DNA from: Streptomyces sp. ICC1
GTDB taxonomy: Bacteria; Actinomycetota; Actinomycetes; Streptomycetales; Streptomycetaceae
Reading direction: 5' to 3'
Assembly (NCBI RefSeq): GCF_003287935.1
Contig: NZ_CP030287.1
Location: 8,076,487-8,140,486 of the forward strand
DNA length: 64,000 nt
Shown: positions 4,978-64,000 of the stretch, one piece after another
Layout of the letters: every line of letters starts with the position of its first letter
Numbering within the stretch: the first letter of the stretch is position 1
Made by a program: the position numbers and the translations under genes
Notes under the pieces: model-generated
The model's database searches: none
What the model was told of the DNA's origin: nothing
The model's input: the letters and a program-made list of their open reading frames with translations, nothing else

Positions 4978-6114
4978 GTGCATTCGCTGCGCGCGGACTA
5001 CGCGGGGTTTCCGGAGTACGCCGGGCAGTACCGGCTCGAATCCGTGCTCGGCTCCGGCGGCATGGGCGTCGTCCACCTGGCCACCTCCGAGTCGGGGCTG
5101 AAACTCGCCGTCAAGATCGTGCACGCCGAGCACGCCGTGGACCCGGAGTTCCGGGCCCGGTTCCGGCAGGAGGTCGCGGCCGCCCGGCGGGTGAGCGGGG
5201 CCTTCACCGCGCCCGTCGTGGACGCGGACCCCGATGCCGAACGCCCTTGGATGGCGACCCTGTTCATCGACGCCCCGACGCTCGCCGAGCGGGTGCGCGA
5301 GCGCGTGCTGGAGGCCCGGGAGCTGACCCGGCTCGCCGCCGGACTGGCCGAGGCGCTGCGGGACATCCACCGGGCGGGGGTCGTGCACCGGGACCTGAAG
5401 CCCAGCAACGTGCTGATGGCCCCGGACGGGGTGCGGGTCATCGACTTCGGCATCTCGCGGCCCGCGGACAGCGATCTGCGGACCGAGACCGGGAAGCTGA
5501 TCGGGACCCCGCCGTTCATGGCGCCGGAGCAGTTCCAGCGGCCGCGCGAGGTCGGGACCGCGGCCGACGTGTTCGCCCTGGGGGCGGTGCTGGTGCACGC
5601 GGCGACCGGGCGGGGGCCGTTCGACTCCGACAGCCACTACCTCGTGGCGTACCAGGTGGTGCACAGCGAGCCCGATCTGACCGGGCTGCCGGAGCGGCTC
5701 GTACCGCTCGTCGCGCAGTGCCTGGCGAAGGACCCGGCGGAGCGGCCGAGCGCGGGCGCGCTGATCGTGGCGCTGCGGGCGCTGGTGTACCCGACGGACC
5801 TGGACACGCAGGTCTTCGTCCCCAGGCCGAGGCGGCCGGCCGAGGCGGAGGAGGTCACGCACCGGCGGGACCGGATCGAGGGCCGGGGCGAGGGCCGTGG
5901 CGATGACCGGGGCGATGACCGTGGCGAGGGCCGGATCGGTGGCCGGATCGGTGGCCGGATCGGAGGTCGGATCGGAGGTCGGGCCGGGGGCCGGGCACCG
6001 GGCCGACCTCCGATCCGACCTCCGATCCGGCCACCGGGCTCGGGGAGCGGGAGGCCGAGGGGCTCGGCTTGGCGCTCGCGGAGGACTGCGAGGGGGCCAC
6101 CTCGGTCAGGCTGA
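4978..6114 (+). CDS. Serine/threonine protein kinase with low-complexity tail
   Basis: This is a Hanks-type kinase. Residues 10-270 hold the kinase fold: glycine loop GSGGMG, VAIK-type lysine in LAVKIV, catalytic loop HRDLKPSNV, DFG in VIDFGISR, and APE in FMAPEQF. No transmembrane helix or sensor domain follows. From about residue 300 the frame becomes a simple-sequence tail of Arg, Gly, Asp and Ile (repeats of GGRI) and then Pro/Arg. This tail is encoded by an inverted repeat shared with the convergent gene on the other strand, so the natural C-terminus may be near 5860. The GTG start at 4978 follows a GGCGGGGGTGG ribosome site; a weak TTGGAG/TAGGCT promoter pair lies at 4928-4958. Confidence 0.85.
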   Translation: MHSLRADYAGFPEYAGQYRLESVLGSGGMGVVHLATSESGLKLAVKIVHAEHAVDPEFRARFRQEVAAARRVSGAFTAPVVDADPDAERPWMATLFIDAPTLAERVRERVLEARELTRLAAGLAEALRDIHRAGVVHRDLKPSNVLMAPDGVRVIDFGISRPADSDLRTETGKLIGTPPFMAPEQFQRPREVGTAADVFALGAVLVHAATGRGPFDSDSHYLVAYQVVHSEPDLTGLPERLVPLVAQCLAKDPAERPSAGALIVALRALVYPTDLDTQVFVPRPRRPAEAEEVTHRRDRIEGRGEGRGDDRGDDRGEGRIGGRIGGRIGGRIGGRAGGRAPGRPPIRPPIRPPGSGSGRPRGSAWRSRRTARGPPRSG

Positions 6115-32028: not shown

Positions 32029-32061
32029 CCGTCCCCTATACCCCTCTGACGCGGCCGACCA
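32029..32061 (+). other. Degenerate sequencing-adapter sequence inside the window
   Basis: Bases 32029-32061 match the Nextera mosaic end CTGTCTCTTATACACATCT followed by GACGCTGCCGACGA at 26 of 33 positions without gaps. Coding potential of the PKS ends exactly here. The following 32062-32219 has no convincing gene, only a 28-bp palindrome at 32091-32118. This is most simply a library or assembly artefact. Confidence 0.85.
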
Positions 32062-38647: not shown

Positions 38648-39931
<1,284 letters not shown>

Positions 39932-40321
39932 GACCGTCACCGTTTCCGTCGTCGCTTGTCTTGCCAATGCCGTCGCCGATGCCCCGACAGGCATCCACGC
40001 ATTGGCACTCTGTGCCTGGATAAGAGGGTGCGGCCACCGGACCCGCCCATGGGCCGGAGCTGAGCAATGCTGCCGATCTACCGGGAGCGGGCTGACCGGA
40101 TCACCGCAATCAGGGCATGAATCGGTGGTCCGGAGTCCGTTCCGGCCACCGGTTCCGGCTGGCCGCAGAACAGACTCTGGCATTGGCACTGGGTGCCAAC
40201 AAGCGGGTACGTCTGCCAAGATGTGCGAATCTTCGAGGCTGAAATTGCCAAGTTTGCGAAGGCTCGTGGCACGTGCGGTCCTCGTATGCTGACCGGGCCC
40301 GTCCGACGGTGGAGGAGTCCG
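39932..40321. promoter_or_regulatory. Divergent aceA/ramB control region with duplicated operator
   Basis: Two copies of a GCATTGGCACTNNGTGCC element lie at 39999-40016 and 40180-40197. The second is a perfect inverted repeat (TTGGCAC, TGG spacer, GTGCCAA; 40183-40199); the first is imperfect on its right arm. They are 181 bp apart, a distance suited to DNA looping. A third element, ATTGCCAAGTTTGCGAA (40244-40260), resembles the corynebacterial RamB box TTGCAAAGTT. No gene is present in this 390-bp gap. Confidence 0.65.
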
Positions 40322-41719
40322 GTGAGCAAGACGTACGCGGGGGTGCGGCTGCGGCGGCTGCGCGAGGAGCGGCGGATGACGCAGGCCGACCTGGCCAGGG
40401 TGCTGGGCATCTCGCCCAGCTATCTGAACCAGATGGAACACGACTCCCGGCCGCTGACCGTCCCGGTGCTGCTGCGGCTCACCGAGGCCTTCGGGGTCGA
40501 TCCGGGCTTCTTCTCGGAGCGCGACACCAGCCGCATGGTCGCGGACCTGCGCGAGGCCCTGGCGACCGAGGTCGCCGAGGCCCGCGTCTCCGCCTCCGAC
40601 CTGGCCGAACTGGCCACCCGGATGCCGGCGGTCGCCGCGGTCCTGCTGGACCTGGGCCGGCGCGGCCAGCTCCTGTCGGAGCGGCTCGCCGACGCGGCCG
40701 AAGGCCGGGGCGGCCCGGCGCAGGCCCCGCGTTCACCCCACGAGGAGATCCGCGAGTTCTTCTACCGCCGGCAGAACTACCTCCACGACACCGATCTCGC
40801 GGCCGAGGAGCTGGCCCGCGAGATCGGCATCCGCCCCGGGGACGTCATCCGCGCCCTGACCCGCCGCCTCGCGGACCGGCACGGGGTCAGGACCGCCGCG
40901 GACTGCGACCGGCTGCACCACTACGACGCCGGCTCCCGCGTCCTGCACCTGTCGAACCGGCTCCGCCCCGGGCAGCAGGCCTTCCGCATGGCCACCCAGC
41001 TCGCCCTCCTGGAGTACGGGGACGAGCTGGACCGGCTGGCCGCGGAGGACTTCCCGGCCGGGTCCGAGGCGCACCCCCTGGCCCGGATCGGCATCGCCAA
41101 CTACTTCGCGGCCGCGCTGGTCCTGCCGTACCGCGCCTTCCACACGGCCGCCGAGGAGTTCCGCTACGACATCGAGCGGCTGACCGACCACTTCGGCCTC
41201 GGGTACGAGACGGTCTGCCACCGGCTCAGCACCCTGCAACGCCCCAGGTTGCGCGGGGTTCCGTTCTCCTTCGTCCGTGTGGACCGGGCCGGGAACATGT
41301 CCAAGCGGCAGTCCGCCACCGGATTCCACTTCTCCCGCGCGGGCGGCACCTGCCCGCTGTGGAACGTGTACGAGTCCTTCGCCGCTCCCGGCCGCATCCA
41401 CGTCCAGGTCGCCGCCATGCCCGACGGTCAGCGCCACCTGTGGACCGCCCGCGCCGTCACCCGGCACCGGGGCGGCTGGGGCGAGCCGGGCAAGACCTTC
41501 GCCATCGGCCTCGGCTGCGAGATCCGGCACGCCTCCCGGCTCGTGTACGCGGACGGGCTCGATCTGGACAACACGGCGGCCGCCACCCCGATCGGCATGG
41601 GGTGCCGGCTCTGCGAACGCCTGGACTGCCCGCAGCGCGCGGTGCCGCCGCTGGGCCGACCCCTGGCCATCGACGAGAACAGCAGCACCTTCGTCCCGTA
41701 TCCCGTCGCGGAGCGGTGA
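40322..41719 (+). CDS. ramB: RamB/ScfR-type short-chain fatty acyl transcriptional regulator
   Basis: This 465-aa regulator has an N-terminal Xre-type HTH ([39 protein letters not shown], residues 7-46). A central DUF955-like region follows ([52 protein letters not shown]). The C-terminal domain has a Cys pair cluster ([16 protein letters not shown]) that may bind metal. RamB proteins control acetate and propionate metabolism genes, including aceA, in Corynebacterium and Mycobacterium. Its position opposite aceA supports that role. The GTG start follows GGAGGAG. Confidence 0.88.
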
Positions 41720-41754: not shown

Positions 41755-41935
41755 CTAGGACGTCCAACTACATGTTCGTGGGCAAAGGTCCGCGGTACAG
41801 GGAAGCCGGTGTGAATCCGGCACGGTCCCGCCACTGTGACCGGGGAGTGTGCTGCCATCCACACGCCGCTGACGAGGTCTGCCGGGAAGGCGGGCGGCAC
41901 GCGGGGATCCGGGAGTCGGGATACCGGCCGCGGAA
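41755..41935 (+). promoter_or_regulatory. Cobalamin riboswitch 1
   Basis: The B12-box core is present: ACAGGGAAGCCGGTGTGAA, then TCCGGCACGGTCCCGCCACTGTGA (41797-41838). Further downstream is AGTCGGGATACCGGCC (41913-41928), which closes the cobalamin-riboswitch fold. An ACTAGGACGTCC palindromic promoter-like motif starts near 41755. The gene it should control is not clear: downstream are only a 28-codon frame and an aldehyde-dehydrogenase fragment. Confidence 0.9.
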
Positions 41936-41956
41936 CGTTCCGTGTTGTCCACGAGG

Positions 41957-42087: not shown

Positions 42088-42243
42088 TCCGTACCCCTGC
42101 GCGTCGGCCGCTCCGACGATCCGGAGGCCGACTTCGGGCCGCTGGTCAGCCGTGACGCGCTCGACCGGGGGGAGCGCTACGTCGGCATCGGAGCCACCGA
42201 GGGCGCCGAACTCGTCGTCGACGGACGGGGGTTCACCCTGCCC
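42088..42243 (+). pseudogene. mmsA: Methylmalonate-semialdehyde dehydrogenase fragment
   Basis: In one frame, SDDPEADFGPLVSRD then ERYVGIGATEGAELVVDGRGFTL matches about 50 residues from the middle of MmsA-type aldehyde dehydrogenases, between the catalytic Glu and Cys regions. No start, no catalytic Cys and no C-terminal domain are present; similarity ends near 42243. It is a relic or a misassembled piece. It sits between an orphan B12 riboswitch and the end of the secreted repeat protein gene. Confidence 0.65.
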
Positions 42244-42300
42244 GGGCGTTCGCGGACAAGCGCCCGCCGCACTTCACCCACGGCTGAGCGCCGGTGCCGG

Positions 42301-42337: not shown

Positions 42338-43750
42338 TCAGGCGCCCCAGCGCAGGGCGATGGTGTCGCCCACGTTGATGACCTTCTCGCGCAGCGCGCC
42401 GGCGGAGGCGGAGCCGTCGACGCTGACCTTCCAGGTGTTCGCGCCGTTGTTGGCCTTGCCGTTGACGTGGGTGATCGTCCCGGTGCCCGAGGACGGGGTC
42501 ACGCTCGTGACGCAGCCGGACGGGGTGGCGGCGCCGGTCGCGGCGGCGAGGACGTCGCCGAGGGTGGTGGTCGCGGCGGTCGGGGTGAAGGCGACCGAGC
42601 AGACCTTGAGGCCGCCCGCGCCGTCGTCGACGGTCAGCGCCAGCTTGGTGGCCGTGCCGGCGGTGAAGGCGGACTGCGCGACCCACTGCGGGGCGCCGGG
42701 GGTGACCGGGACGGGCGGGGCCGCCGTGAAGCCGCCGCCGGCCACGGCGCGCAGGGCGTCGATGGAGGCGTAGGCCGACGGGACGGCGTCCGAGGGCTTG
42801 TACTTGAAGCCGCCGGCCGGGTTGTACTGGTTGGCGATCAGGAAGTCGATCGGGGTCTTGCCGCTGCCGGTGAGGAAGTCACCGGTCTGCGGGTTGAATC
42901 CGCAGGCGTTCAGGCCGGCGACGCCCCAGCCGTTCGAGCTGGTGTTGACCCCGTAGAGGGAGTTGAAGGCGCCCGTGCCCGAGACGAGCGTGCCCTTGAG
43001 GAAGTTCTTCGCCTGGACGACGTCCGCGTCGGTGTTGGGGACCCCGGAGACGCAGAGGGCGGCCATGGCCGCGCCCGTCATGTCGACGTCGCTCGCGGAG
43101 TTGAGGACCGTCGGGTTGCCCTCCGCCTTCTGGAAGGTCCAGCCGCCGTCCACGTGCTGGTTGGCGCGGATGCGGGTGACCATCGAGTCGGTCAGCGCCT
43201 GCGGGATGCGCTGCGCGCCGCCCTGGGTCTTGGCCCCGCGCAGCGAAAGGGCCGCGAAGACGGTGCCGTTGAAGTTTCCCGACGGGCCGAAGTAGCCCGC
43301 CTCGGCCGTCTGCCAGTAGGAGTAGACGTTCGCCACGAGGTTGCGCGAGGCCGAGACGCGGGCCGGGTCGATGCCCGCGGCGTACGCGTTCAGGGTGCCG
43401 CGCTCGTAGTCGGTGACCACCGGGGAGGCCTGCGGCCAGCCCGCCGTGGAGAGGAGGTTGCGGTAGACCGTGCGGGCGTTCTTCGTGGTGTCGCCGCCGG
43501 GGTAGACGTCGACGACGGCGGTGCCGGAGGCGGCGAGGGCGCTGAACGCCCACTCGTTGGACAGGCCGGAGCCGGCGTACGAACCATCGGCCGCCTGAAG
43601 CGACTTGAGGTGGGCGACACCGTTCGTCTTGGACGTGGCCAGCTGCGCCGGCGACGAGGTCGCGGAGGCGGGCAGCACCGTGAGGGCGAAGGCGCCGAGT
43701 GTGGCGGGCACCGCGAGCGCGAGGCGGCGGGAGGTGCGGGGACGGGACAT
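42338..43750 (-). CDS. Secreted transcobalamin/intrinsic-factor-like protein (alpha/alpha repeat plus DUF4430)
   Basis: This 470-aa exported protein has a signal peptide at residues 1-31 (RRLALAVPATLGAFALTVL, PASA cleavage). Residues 40-330 are repeats of the prenyltransferase/squalene-cyclase alpha-alpha barrel type (LKSLQAADGSYAGSGLSNEWAFSALA, IRANQHVDGGWTF, AAMAALCVSGV, SSNGWGVAGLNACG, NQYNPAGGFKY). The C-terminus (370-470) is a DUF4430-like beta domain ending ITHVNGKANNGANTWKVSVDG, then VNVGDTIALRWGA. Vertebrate intrinsic factor and transcobalamin share this two-domain plan. With a cobalamin riboswitch in its leader, a secreted B12-binding role is likely, though not proven. ATG 43748-43750 follows AGGAG. 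Confidence 0.8.
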   Translation of the reverse strand: MSRPRTSRRLALAVPATLGAFALTVLPASATSSPAQLATSKTNGVAHLKSLQAADGSYAGSGLSNEWAFSALAASGTAVVDVYPGGDTTKNARTVYRNLLSTAGWPQASPVVTDYERGTLNAYAAGIDPARVSASRNLVANVYSYWQTAEAGYFGPSGNFNGTVFAALSLRGAKTQGGAQRIPQALTDSMVTRIRANQHVDGGWTFQKAEGNPTVLNSASDVDMTGAAMAALCVSGVPNTDADVVQAKNFLKGTLVSGTGAFNSLYGVNTSSNGWGVAGLNACGFNPQTGDFLTGSGKTPIDFLIANQYNPAGGFKYKPSDAVPSAYASIDALRAVAGGGFTAAPPVPVTPGAPQWVAQSAFTAGTATKLALTVDDGAGGLKVCSVAFTPTAATTTLGDVLAAATGAATPSGCVTSVTPSSGTGTITHVNGKANNGANTWKVSVDGSASAGALREKVINVGDTIALRWGA

Positions 43751-43875
43751 GGCCTGCTCCTGGAATCGGCGGACGCCGGCTCCTCCCGCGCAGGCCGCAC
43801 GTGACCACCGCAGGGCACGGCGGGGCACGGCAAGGGCCCGGTCGGAGAGCCGCCGTCCGGAACGCGTGGTACGGC

Positions 43876-43995
43876 TTCCTGTAGTGCATCGCCGTTTGGG
43901 CATTCGGGCTCGGAGACGGCCCCCGCCGTCCCACACCGCTGCGCGTCAGCTCCGGCATCTCACCGGATTCCCCCATGTGGCAGCCCTGGACGCTA
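43876..43995 (-). promoter_or_regulatory. Cobalamin riboswitch 2 (leader of the transcobalamin-like gene)
   Basis: Reading leftwards from about 43995: GGGGGAATCCGGTGAGATG, CCGGAGCTGACGCGCAGCGG, a GC hairpin (GGGACGGCGG...CCGTCTCC) and GAGCCCGAATGCCC (near 43912-43899). These are the P4-P6 core and the closing segment of the cobalamin fold. About 125 nt of expression platform follow before the ATG at 43750. It is oriented correctly for the leftward secreted-protein gene. Confidence 0.88.
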
Positions 43996-44100
43996 CCCGA
44001 GTGATCAAGGGACCGCCAGCCGCCGGGAACCGGGGCGCGCGGCGGGCGTCCGGGACGGGCCGGCTGAGGTTCGTGCCACCTTGACGCGTCGGCGAGATCC

Positions 44101-44225
44101 GTGTTGCACTCCGGCTGATAACTGCTCAGCACCAGGGGAAGCCGGTCGAATTCCGGCGCTGACCCGCAACCGTAGGCCCGGGCTCGTTCCGGGTGAGCCG
44201 GAATGCCTGGAGCCGGGCCACAGTA
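44101..44225 (+). promoter_or_regulatory. Cobalamin riboswitch 3 (leader of the second secreted protein)
   Basis: GGGGAAGCCGGTCGAATTCC, GGCGCTGACCCGCAACCGTA, a GGCCCGGGCTC hairpin and GAGCCGGAATGCCTGG (44194-44209) form the complete cobalamin-riboswitch core. It is back-to-back with riboswitch 2, with only about 100 bp between them for two divergent promoters. The gene it controls starts at 44340. Confidence 0.92.
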
Positions 44226-44339
44226 CGAAGAGCGCCGTCGCGGATTGCGGTGTGGTCGTCGCAGCCTCCCCACGGCGCAGGAAGCCGTGCGGGGGCAGTT
44301 CGCCACGCACGCAGCCGCCCGGCAGAGACGAGGGCCGCG

Positions 44340-44906
44340 GTGGGGACCGAACAGCAGGCGAAACGGCAGTCGGGGACGAGGCGGCGGTTCCTCTCCCTCG
44401 TGACCGCGTCCCTCCTGACGCTCGGTGCGGGAGTGGCCTTCCTCACGGTTCCGTCCTCCGCGAACGCCGATCCGATCGAGCAGTGCACGGCCACCACGGG
44501 CGCCATCGTGGCGGTGGACTTCGGCCCTTTCGGCGGCAAGGTCGAGCGCGGCTGTGACACCACCCCGACCACCGGGTTCGAGCTGCTGCGCACCGGCCGC
44601 TTCACGACCGAGGGCACCGTCCACGACGGCGACGGGTTCATCTGCCGGATAGGCAACGCCTCCTTCAACTCCGGTACGCAGTACCCCACTCCGGACAAGG
44701 AGGAGTGCGTCCTCACGCCGCAGGCCACCGCCTACTGGTCGTACTGGATCGCCTCCCCGGGGCAGAAGAACTGGACCTACAGCTCGCTCGGCGCCATGTC
44801 GCGCACCCCGAAGGCCGGCGACGTGGACGCCTGGGTCTTCGGCGGCACCGACACCGGCGGCACCCAGGGCAAGCCCTCCTTCTCCCCCGACGACGTCCGG
44901 GCCGCC
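44340..44906 (+). CDS. Secreted DUF4430-like protein under B12 control, 3' end lost
   Basis: GTG 44340 (after GACGAGGG) starts a signal peptide (RRRFLSLVTASLLTLGAGVAFLTV, PSSANA cleavage near residue 38). The mature part has four Cys residues and a DUF4430-like pattern: GFELLRTGRFTTEGTVHDGDGFICRIGN, then YWSYWIASPGQKNWTYSSLGA. That YWSYW-type strand is typical of DUF4430. It probably works with the divergent transcobalamin-like protein in B12 capture. Authentic sequence ends at the axis of a 102-bp fold-back palindrome (44906/44907). The remaining frame to 44993 reads palindrome and adapter, so the natural C-terminus (and any downstream transporter genes) is missing. Confidence 0.75.
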
Positions 44907-44957
44907 GGCGGCCCGGACGCCGTCGGGGGAGAAGGAGGGCTTGCCCTGCGTGCCGCC
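44856..44957. repeat. 102-bp fold-back inverted repeat with no spacer
   Basis: Arms 44856-44906 and 44907-44957 are reverse complements at 49 of 51 positions. The right arm re-encodes part of the secreted protein (GTQGKPSFSPD) on the opposite strand. It is followed immediately by an adapter-like sequence, so it is probably a library fold-back. Confidence 0.9.
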
Positions 44958-44990
44958 TGGCTCTTCGACCCATCTCCGAGCCCCCGAGAC
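44957..44990 (+). other. Degenerate sequencing-adapter sequence after the fold-back
   Basis: It matches the Nextera mosaic end CTGTCTCTTATACACATCT followed by CCGAGCCCACGAGAC at 29 of 34 positions without gaps. All five differences are A to C or T to G, the usual Illumina dye-crosstalk errors. The kinase frame on the other strand reads through it, giving that kinase a false C-terminus. Confidence 0.9.
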
Positions 44991-45918
44991 TAGGCGGGGT
45001 GGGCGCCGGGGCGGGCAGTTGGAGCCGCTCGGTGATGGAGCCGGCGACCGCCCGCGGCAGCCAGTCCTCGCCCTGGCGCAGCGGCTGCGCCGCGGCCTCG
45101 TGGCACAGCGCGATGACCTCGGTCAGGGTCGGGCGGTCGGCCGGGTCGCGGCTGAGGCAGCGGGTCACCACGGGCCGCAGCTCCTCGGGCAGGGCGCTGA
45201 GGTCGGGGTCCTCGTGCACGATCCGGTAGAGCACGGCGTGCGAGGGCCCGTCGCCGAAGACGGACGCCCCGATCGCGGCGAAGGCCGCGATCTGGCCGAG
45301 GGCGAAGACGTCGGTGGCCGGGGTGACCGTACCCGCCGAAGCCTGTTCGGGCGCCATGAACGCCGGGGTGCCGACGCTGACGCCGGTGCTGGTCAGCGCG
45401 GTGCTGTCGGCCGCCCGGGCGATGCCGAAGTCGATGACGCGCGGGCCGTCGGAGGCGAGCAGGACGTTGGCGGGCTTCAGGTCGCGGTGGACGATGCCCG
45501 CGCCGTGGATGACGTGGAGGGCCTCGGCGACCCCGACGGTCAGCAGCAGCACGCTGCGCGGCGGCAGCGCGCCGTGCCGGGCCACGGCGTGCGCGAGGGA
45601 GGGACCGGGCACGTAGGCCGTGGCCAGCCAGGGCTGGTCGCCCTCGGTGTCCGAGTCGATGACCGGCGCCGTGTAGAGGCCCTGGACCCGCTCCGCGGCC
45701 CGCACCTCCTGCTGGAAGCGCCGCCGGAACTCGGGGTCTTCGCTGAACTCGGACCGGATCACCTTGACGGCGATGGGCCGGCCGCCCGGCGTGTAGGAGA
45801 GGTAGACCTTGCCCATGCCGCCCGCGCCCAGCACCGCCGCCAGACGGTAGCCGCCCACGACGGCCGGGTCCTCCTCCTTGAGCGGCTGGAAGAAGCCGTC
45901 CGAAGGCGCACTGCCCAT
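44991..45918 (-). CDS. Serine/threonine protein kinase, 3' end lost
   Basis: This is a Hanks-type kinase: glycine loop GAGGMG near residue 29, Lys in IAVKVI, catalytic loop HRDLKPANV, VIDFGIAR, and MAPEQA. About 300 residues are authentic. The catalytic domain is complete to about residue 275 (CLSRDPADRPTLTEVI) and the juxtamembrane linker LQLPAPAPTPPS begins. The frame then enters an adapter-like sequence and a palindrome, running to 44713. Any transmembrane helix or sensor domain is missing. ATG 45916-45918 follows AGGGGATG. It resembles the other kinase in this window (4978). Confidence 0.85.
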
Positions 45919-46081
45919 GAGCAACCATCCCCTTGCTGGCGGCGGTCCGGCTGCTGCCGGCGCACCGAAGTCAACCGCGAGGGTACCCAATGTCCGGCTC
46001 GCCGGGCGCGCCGGAACCCGTGGGGCCCCCGGGAGTTGGGTCCGCCGGGTGCCCGCCGGGAGTCGGGCGCGCCGGAATCCG

Positions 46082-63979: not shown

Positions 63980-64000
63980 CTGTCTCCTATAGACATCTCT
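63980..64000 (+). other. Degenerate adapter sequence at the window end
   Basis: The last 21 bases match the Nextera mosaic end CTGTCTCTTATACACATCT plus CC at 18 of 21 positions. This marks a physical contig end rather than genomic sequence. Confidence 0.85.

Follow-up and report, generated by a model that had tools for sequence, protein, structure and literature searches.

We examined a pair of divergent genes in a 64,000-nucleotide stretch of the Streptomyces sp. ICC1 genome (hereafter the window), which corresponds to positions 8076487-8140486 of the single 9.03 Mb contig NZ_CP030287.1. The two genes, here called left and right according to their position, face away from each other behind two leaders resembling cobalamin riboswitches (Table 1). 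We consider it likely that the locus forms the left end of an operon for corrinoid capture that is repressed by vitamin B12 (cobalamin) and acts as a relay feeding an importer of the energy-coupling factor (ECF) type, and that this operon looks broken because of a misassembly.

Table 1. Features of the divergent locus and its surroundings, in window positions.
Feature	Positions	Strand	Description
Third cobalamin riboswitch	41776-41946	+	RF00174, 85.6 bits; strongest of the three, absent from the preliminary description
mmsA-like gene fragment, ~150 bp	42096-42247	+	From comparison with S. roseus (L099); rest missing in the window
Left gene, 470 aa	42338-43750	-	Signal-peptide-like N-terminus, alpha/alpha toroid, linker, C-terminal beta-grasp domain (DUF4430/SLBB-like)
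Cobalamin riboswitch aptamer, left gene	43881-44013	-	RF00174, 36.8 bits
Cobalamin riboswitch aptamer, right gene	44095-44231	+	RF00174, 30.1 bits; supported by relatives
Right gene, native 5' part	44340-44906	+	Signal-peptide-like N-terminus and SCO2322-like N-terminal domain; ~925 aa in relatives
Zero-gap inverted repeat	44856-44957	.	51-nt arms, 96% complementary; very probably a false junction

According to its structural model, the left protein is built like the human B12 carriers: a toroid (residues ~34-339) is followed by a beta-grasp domain (residues ~360-470) with the order strand-strand-helix-short strands-strands. The model was confident (pLDDT 90.6, pTM 0.89), and among the 50 PDB matches listed by a Foldseek search with it, transcobalamin, intrinsic factor or haptocorrin accounted for ranks 1-14 and 17 (best E 7.4e-9), in alignments of 468-494 columns that covered both domains. 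The preliminary description, made from the sequence alone, had read an alpha-alpha barrel and a DUF4430-like domain in this protein, and the model bears it out. The proposed likeness to transcobalamin holds for the order of the two domains; in our ligand-free model their relative placement differs from that in holo-transcobalamin (root-mean-square deviation of 18.9-20.2 A when the complete alignment is taken). In a VIA-align structural comparison toroid enzymes filled the list, and intrinsic factor appeared in it.

Pfam matches of the single left sequence were weak: DUF4430 was found at E 0.085 (13.8 bits, cut-off 23.8) and SQHop_cyclase_N at E 0.06, also below cut-off. Among 51 left homologues, a set selected out of 120 listed proteins and 77 loci, 7 matched DUF4430 (best E 2e-4) and 22 matched SQHop_cyclase_C (best E 8.4e-6) at E ≤ 0.01. 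Four cysteines were invariant in all 51, and the invariant motif of the left family is D221-x-D223-M-T. The left toroid is related to the first toroid of the right protein (hhalign probability 95.2, E 2.8e-8). Profiles of both families searched against PDB sequences recovered toroid proteins (squalene/terpene cyclases, prenyltransferases and others) along with chance hits, and transcobalamin was not found among them. The best relatives of the left protein among the matches listed were Streptomyces proteins with 90-91% identity. The most likely start of its gene is ATG 43750, rather than the open reading frame start 43936, and by eye, with no predictor run, the N-terminus looks like a signal peptide. 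At the C-terminus, which is a beta strand, inspection by eye showed neither a wall anchor nor a membrane helix.

Riboswitches were called with Infernal against RF00174 (cut-off 31.5 bits). The preliminary description had reported two complete riboswitch cores placed back to back and had proposed this search as a check. The left leader scored over the cut-off (36.8 bits) and the right leader just under it (30.1 bits; E 3.6e-5 in the 2.8 kb searched), so that the second core stands mainly through its relatives; the search also returned the third riboswitch of Table 1. In the whole host genome, RF00174 gave 11 matches, 9 of them over the cut-off. Leader cores were located by a regular expression rather than by a covariance model, and we aligned 38 of the 84 left and 37 of the 89 right copies recovered. 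The core GGGAA..CCGGT..CCGG.GCTG was common to all aligned copies. RNAalifold predicted 23 pairs per leader, and two-sided changes (in at least one sequence) occurred at 7 of the 23 left pairs and 8 of the 23 right pairs, which do not represent independent events because the aligned copies are related. We find the sub-threshold right riboswitch convincing because of the conserved core and the two-sided changes in relatives, and the right leader very likely works as a cobalamin riboswitch. Both genes are probably switched off by B12, judging from the behaviour of the RF00174 family. Folding of the stretches between aptamer and start codon gave nothing clearly above shuffled sequences (z -0.34 and -1.48), and for that reason we claim no expression platform.

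For the right gene the most likely start is GTG 44340, and its reading frame is native only to ~44906. In the related locus L034 the full-length right protein (~925 aa) begins with a SCO2322-like domain, continues with two toroids and ends in a tail made of LASTG, a hydrophobic segment and basic residues. The right match ran across two toroids in 26 out of 26 relatives, as separate pieces in one of them (L086). Streptomyces class E sortases use LAXTG signals, and an LAxTG motif was present within the last 70 residues of 43 out of 44 right homologues (a set taken from 120 listed sequences). The term LAXTG also occurs in a paper on an S. coelicolor class E sortase (PMC5148588). The locus had been described as a pair of secreted proteins; this does not hold for the right gene, which is the start of a long LAxTG protein very probably cut by the assembly. 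The model of the full-length protein gave two confident toroids (~203-502 and ~518-821) and an N-terminal domain of low confidence. VIA-align with this model placed no cobalamin carrier among the 50 matches listed, which toroid enzymes filled, a result that excludes nothing.

The right protein had also been called DUF4430-like. We detected no DUF4430 match in the window fragment and none in the 44 full-length homologues at E ≤ 0.1, and a profile comparison gave no alignment between the right N-terminal domain and the left C-terminal domain; the name is therefore unsupported. The N-terminal domain of the fragment matched SCO2322_fam (NF040672) at E 1.6e-4, with a score of 22.1 against a cut-off of 85, which the right protein of L034 and the paralogue encoded next to it did not reach either (17.1 and 22.3, respectively). 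Against SCO2321 (NF053823), the full-length L034 protein scored 150.9 (cut-off 300) in five matched stretches, and by sequence the right toroids are related to the SCO2321 family without being members of it. PF01122, the eukaryotic cobalamin-binding protein family, was matched by 6 out of the 44 homologues at E ≤ 0.1 (best 2.3e-4, 20.7 bits, cut-off 25). At the right N-terminus (44340-44460, + strand) we noted by eye a twin-arginine-like RRRFLSL, with a TAT-signal match (PF10399) at E 0.0016, below cut-off; export of the right protein may follow the twin-arginine translocation (Tat) route.

We then considered the genes downstream of the right gene. In L034 these encode the paralogue, which by eye has a hydrophobic segment at its C-terminus, followed by CbiQ, a double ATPase and an S component, that is, the T, A and S parts of an ECF transporter. 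CbiQ (E 1.2e-9) and ABC_tran (E 3.1e-47) were over cut-off, and the S component was just under that of ECF_trnsprt (E 1.6e-6; 28.7, cut-off 30.7). The paralogue matched no Pfam family at E ≤ 0.1, and the S component had no sequence match in the PDB. The left protein had a match in 31 out of 295 sampled genomes of the same genus, own genome included, and a near full-length one in 27, with 5 first-look candidates scored per genome; four genomes with partial or weak matches (G235, G260, G280 and G285) were left out of the 26 relatives, two of which, G280 and G285, were inspected without being counted. The order left / right-T-A-S was kept in all 26 relatives with a near full-length left copy; at least one riboswitch core was present in all 26 and both cores in 22. 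Similar patterns were observed in 77 named loci, which overlap with the 26 relatives in some genomes and come mostly from Streptomyces, but also from Kitasatospora, Actinacidiphila, Micromonospora and Dactylosporangium, with Solirubrobacter and Patulibacter as distant members. A divergent right gene was found in 71 of these loci, at least one riboswitch core in 70 and both cores in 54; the seven without a core were L141, L151, L168, L169, L171, L172 and L173. Of the named loci, 62 offered room of 8 kb or more, and the whole order was kept in 55 of these, the exceptions being L141, L143, L151, L168, L170, L172 and L173, several of which are distant or broken copies. Named species with the operon include S. 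roseus (L099), S. griseus (L107) and S. goshikiensis (L100). Next to the left gene of S. roseus lies a gene for another protein that looks secreted and has a DUF4430-like pattern (L099 10933-11583, - strand); a BtuF-like protein is encoded after it (both by eye).

In the window the operon is interrupted at the inverted repeat: the second arm of the repeat (44907-44957) copies the first (44856-44906) as a fold-back and is followed by a truncated Ser/Thr kinase gene. The rest of the right gene was found elsewhere on the same contig (L033 12546-10456, - strand), together with the start of the paralogue (the two spanning 12546-9879) and beside a fold-back with 135-nt arms (76%). The end of the paralogue and the T, A and S genes, the latter with 92-94% identity, were in another piece of the same genome (L096); these other operon pieces lie at ~8.773-8.776 Mb and ~5.488-5.492 Mb of the contig. 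Compared with L034, the three pieces together leave just ~108 and ~75 bp of the operon uncovered. We also found 77 matches resembling Nextera adapters in the contig, 68 of them in its second half, and none in the genomes of 8 relatives, with a reversed control pattern also giving 0; an adapter-like sequence (L033 9813-9837) lies ~40 bp past the end of the paralogue match.

The fold-backs, the scattered pieces and the adapter-like matches lead us to regard the apparently broken operon as an assembly artefact, which very probably joined unrelated pieces at 44906/44907; the organism itself probably has an intact operon. The simplest reading is an end-to-end joining of contigs built from short reads, some of these contigs terminating in adapter or fold-back sequence, and with 77 adapter-like points in the contig the gene order across them is untrustworthy. 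A genuine truncation of the right gene by a chromosomal rearrangement, leaving a free N-terminal-domain protein, would agree with the contig as given, with the fold-backs on both sides of the break and with the lack of an adapter match at the 44906 junction itself. We nevertheless hold it to be very unlikely, given the adapter-like sequence near the end of the second piece, the contrast with the 8 relatives and the small gaps between pieces. A real inversion of ~650 kb as the cause of the split was dropped in view of the same adapter-like sequence near the second break. The kinase gene cut at the junction is AfsK-like (44713-45990, - strand), with ~310 residues matching an AfsK model of 809 positions. 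Elsewhere in the window there is an adapter-like match at 32037-32061 (contig 8108523) and a mosaic-end-like match at 63980-63998, each with 2 mismatches, and a second zero-gap inverted repeat at 5949-6036 (44-nt arms, 93%), which falls in a short GC-rich repeat and is possibly a false junction.

The host genome also contains a locus of the SCO2321/SCO2322 type with its own cobalamin riboswitch (L038). SCO2321_fam was over cut-off in 95 out of 101 sampled Streptomyces genomes, and because it is nearly universal we regard the system of the window as an accessory, second one. In both systems a toroid-anchor protein and SCO2322 or SCO2322-like sequence are encoded close to CbiQ-like and ABC genes, downstream of a cobalamin riboswitch. 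The SCO2321/SCO2322 locus has separate short proteins, whereas the system of the window fuses a SCO2322-like domain with two toroids, adds the left protein, and has a right protein and paralogue that reach neither family's cut-off. The B12 biosynthesis genes looked at in the host were a CbiC gene and, by eye, cbiM- and cobD-like genes behind riboswitches, all of which were present; uptake would thus save synthesis rather than answer an absolute need.

Based on these results, we propose that scarcity of cobalamin would make both riboswitches release expression in the two directions, as expected from the behaviour of the family. The secreted left protein would bind corrinoid between toroid and beta-grasp domain in the manner of transcobalamin, as its modelled fold suggests. 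The wall-anchored right protein, with its SCO2322-like domain, two toroids and LAxTG signal, and the paralogue would keep the corrinoid on the cell surface and pass it on to the adjoining ECF transporter, a step suggested by the gene order in relatives. If this is true, soil bacteria that have genes for B12 biosynthesis would in addition capture extracellular B12, using one protein built like the human carriers.

A bolder version, which we think possible and rather unlikely, makes the left protein a diffusible, siderophore-like B12 carrier, a bacterial intrinsic factor that would be released when B12 runs short, loaded with corrinoid at a distance, and recognised and stripped by the anchored double-toroid protein, the membrane-anchored paralogue then relaying the cargo to the ECF importer. 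Such a system would be a bacterial counterpart of the relay from intrinsic factor to its receptor. It is improbable, in our view, that the ligand is not complete cobalamin but a related molecule (cobinamide or other corrinoids), or a different compound, with B12 entering only through regulation. The B12 biosynthesis genes of the host make salvage of incomplete corrinoids plausible, and the S component lacks a sequence match in the PDB; cobalamin is nevertheless favoured by the paired riboswitches of most relatives and by the Foldseek result, in which the left fold was nearest to cobalamin carriers.

The preliminary description had left a choice between B12 scavenging and B12 withholding by secreted proteins. 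The ECF linkage in relatives favours the first, with the correction that the right protein is not simply secreted. A left protein that withholds B12 from competitors instead of feeding its producer seems to us most unlikely: ending in a beta strand, it should indeed diffuse away, but its gene shares the divergent promoter region with the importer operon in 26 out of 26 relatives, a conserved linkage for which we favour scavenging, and repression by B12, as expected of the riboswitch family, fits uptake driven by need. Finally, there is hardly any chance that the toroids are catalytic and the proteins enzymes like class II terpene cyclases. The best structural neighbours of the toroids in VIA-align were squalene-hopene and related cyclases, and databases label many right homologues as prenyltransferase/squalene oxidase repeat proteins. 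Class II cyclases carry a DxDD acid motif, however, which is not the invariant motif of the left family, and secretion and ECF linkage are ill-suited to a terpene cyclase.

The vertebrate carriers transcobalamin, intrinsic factor and haptocorrin share with the left protein the alpha/alpha toroid followed by a beta-grasp domain and the character of secreted proteins (by eye for the left one). They differ from it in sequence (12-15% identity) and in the modelled placement of the domains, and they use an endocytic receptor, whereas the left gene lies behind a riboswitch and is paired with an ECF importer in relatives. The locus had been considered unusual for a Gram-positive organism, a view that finds no support in the frequency of SCO2321_fam in Streptomyces or in an earlier description of proteins of this kind: Burroughs et al. 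2007 (PMC1796856), in the sections available to us, describe secreted or anchored toroid and beta-grasp (SLBB) proteins in Gram-positives and predict B12 scavenging for them. In these sections the toroid lies N- or C-terminal to the beta-grasp domain, and paralogue pairs, Gram-positive anchors and CbiO/CbiQ operons are reported, all of which recall the system of the window, with its anchor and second paralogue. The clade is given there as mainly low-GC Gram-positives and planctomycetes, rarer in euryarchaea, usually lacking key B12 biosynthesis enzymes; two actinobacteria are included in the superfamily alignment. Compared with that account, the system of the window belongs to actinomycetes that have a B12 biosynthesis gene and a second, related system, and it has a two-toroid anchored protein, a separate unanchored left protein in the transcobalamin order and two divergent riboswitches. 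With the operons in named Streptomyces, the origin of animal transcobalamin from scavenging proteins of Gram-positives, an idea of 2007, would become directly testable.

Two further systems are comparable. ECF-CbrT of Lactobacillus delbrueckii (PMC5997447) is likewise an ECF-type importer in a B12-related gene neighbourhood; its energising module also serves other S components, and the available part of that paper mentions no extracellular carrier, whereas here T, A, S and the surface proteins are encoded in one operon. BtuG of Bacteroides is, in the text available to us (PMC6143338), also a surface protein capturing extracellular B12 for an importer, but a Gram-negative surface lipoprotein working with BtuB, and its likeness to the proteins of the window is one of description. 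In the open PMC papers searched we found no experimental account of the left or right proteins. The locus also illustrates how a mis-joined genome can make a conserved operon look like an oddity.

The third riboswitch lies upstream of the mmsA-like gene fragment. A matching leader in S. roseus (L099) is followed by an mmsA-like gene (methylmalonate-semialdehyde dehydrogenase), an acyl-CoA dehydrogenase gene and further catabolic genes (names by eye), and control of the methylmalonate-semialdehyde step by B12 is thus possible. The idea of a metE leader was dropped, as relatives have the mmsA-like gene behind it. The remainder of this gene was lost either by a real deletion or in the assembly, two causes that the assembly problem makes indistinguishable. 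The window also holds a Streptomyces-metK RNA (Infernal). Finally, genes for isocitrate lyase and a RamB-like regulator (38648-41719) adjoin the locus, and another locus (L036) shows the same order by the left gene (by eye).

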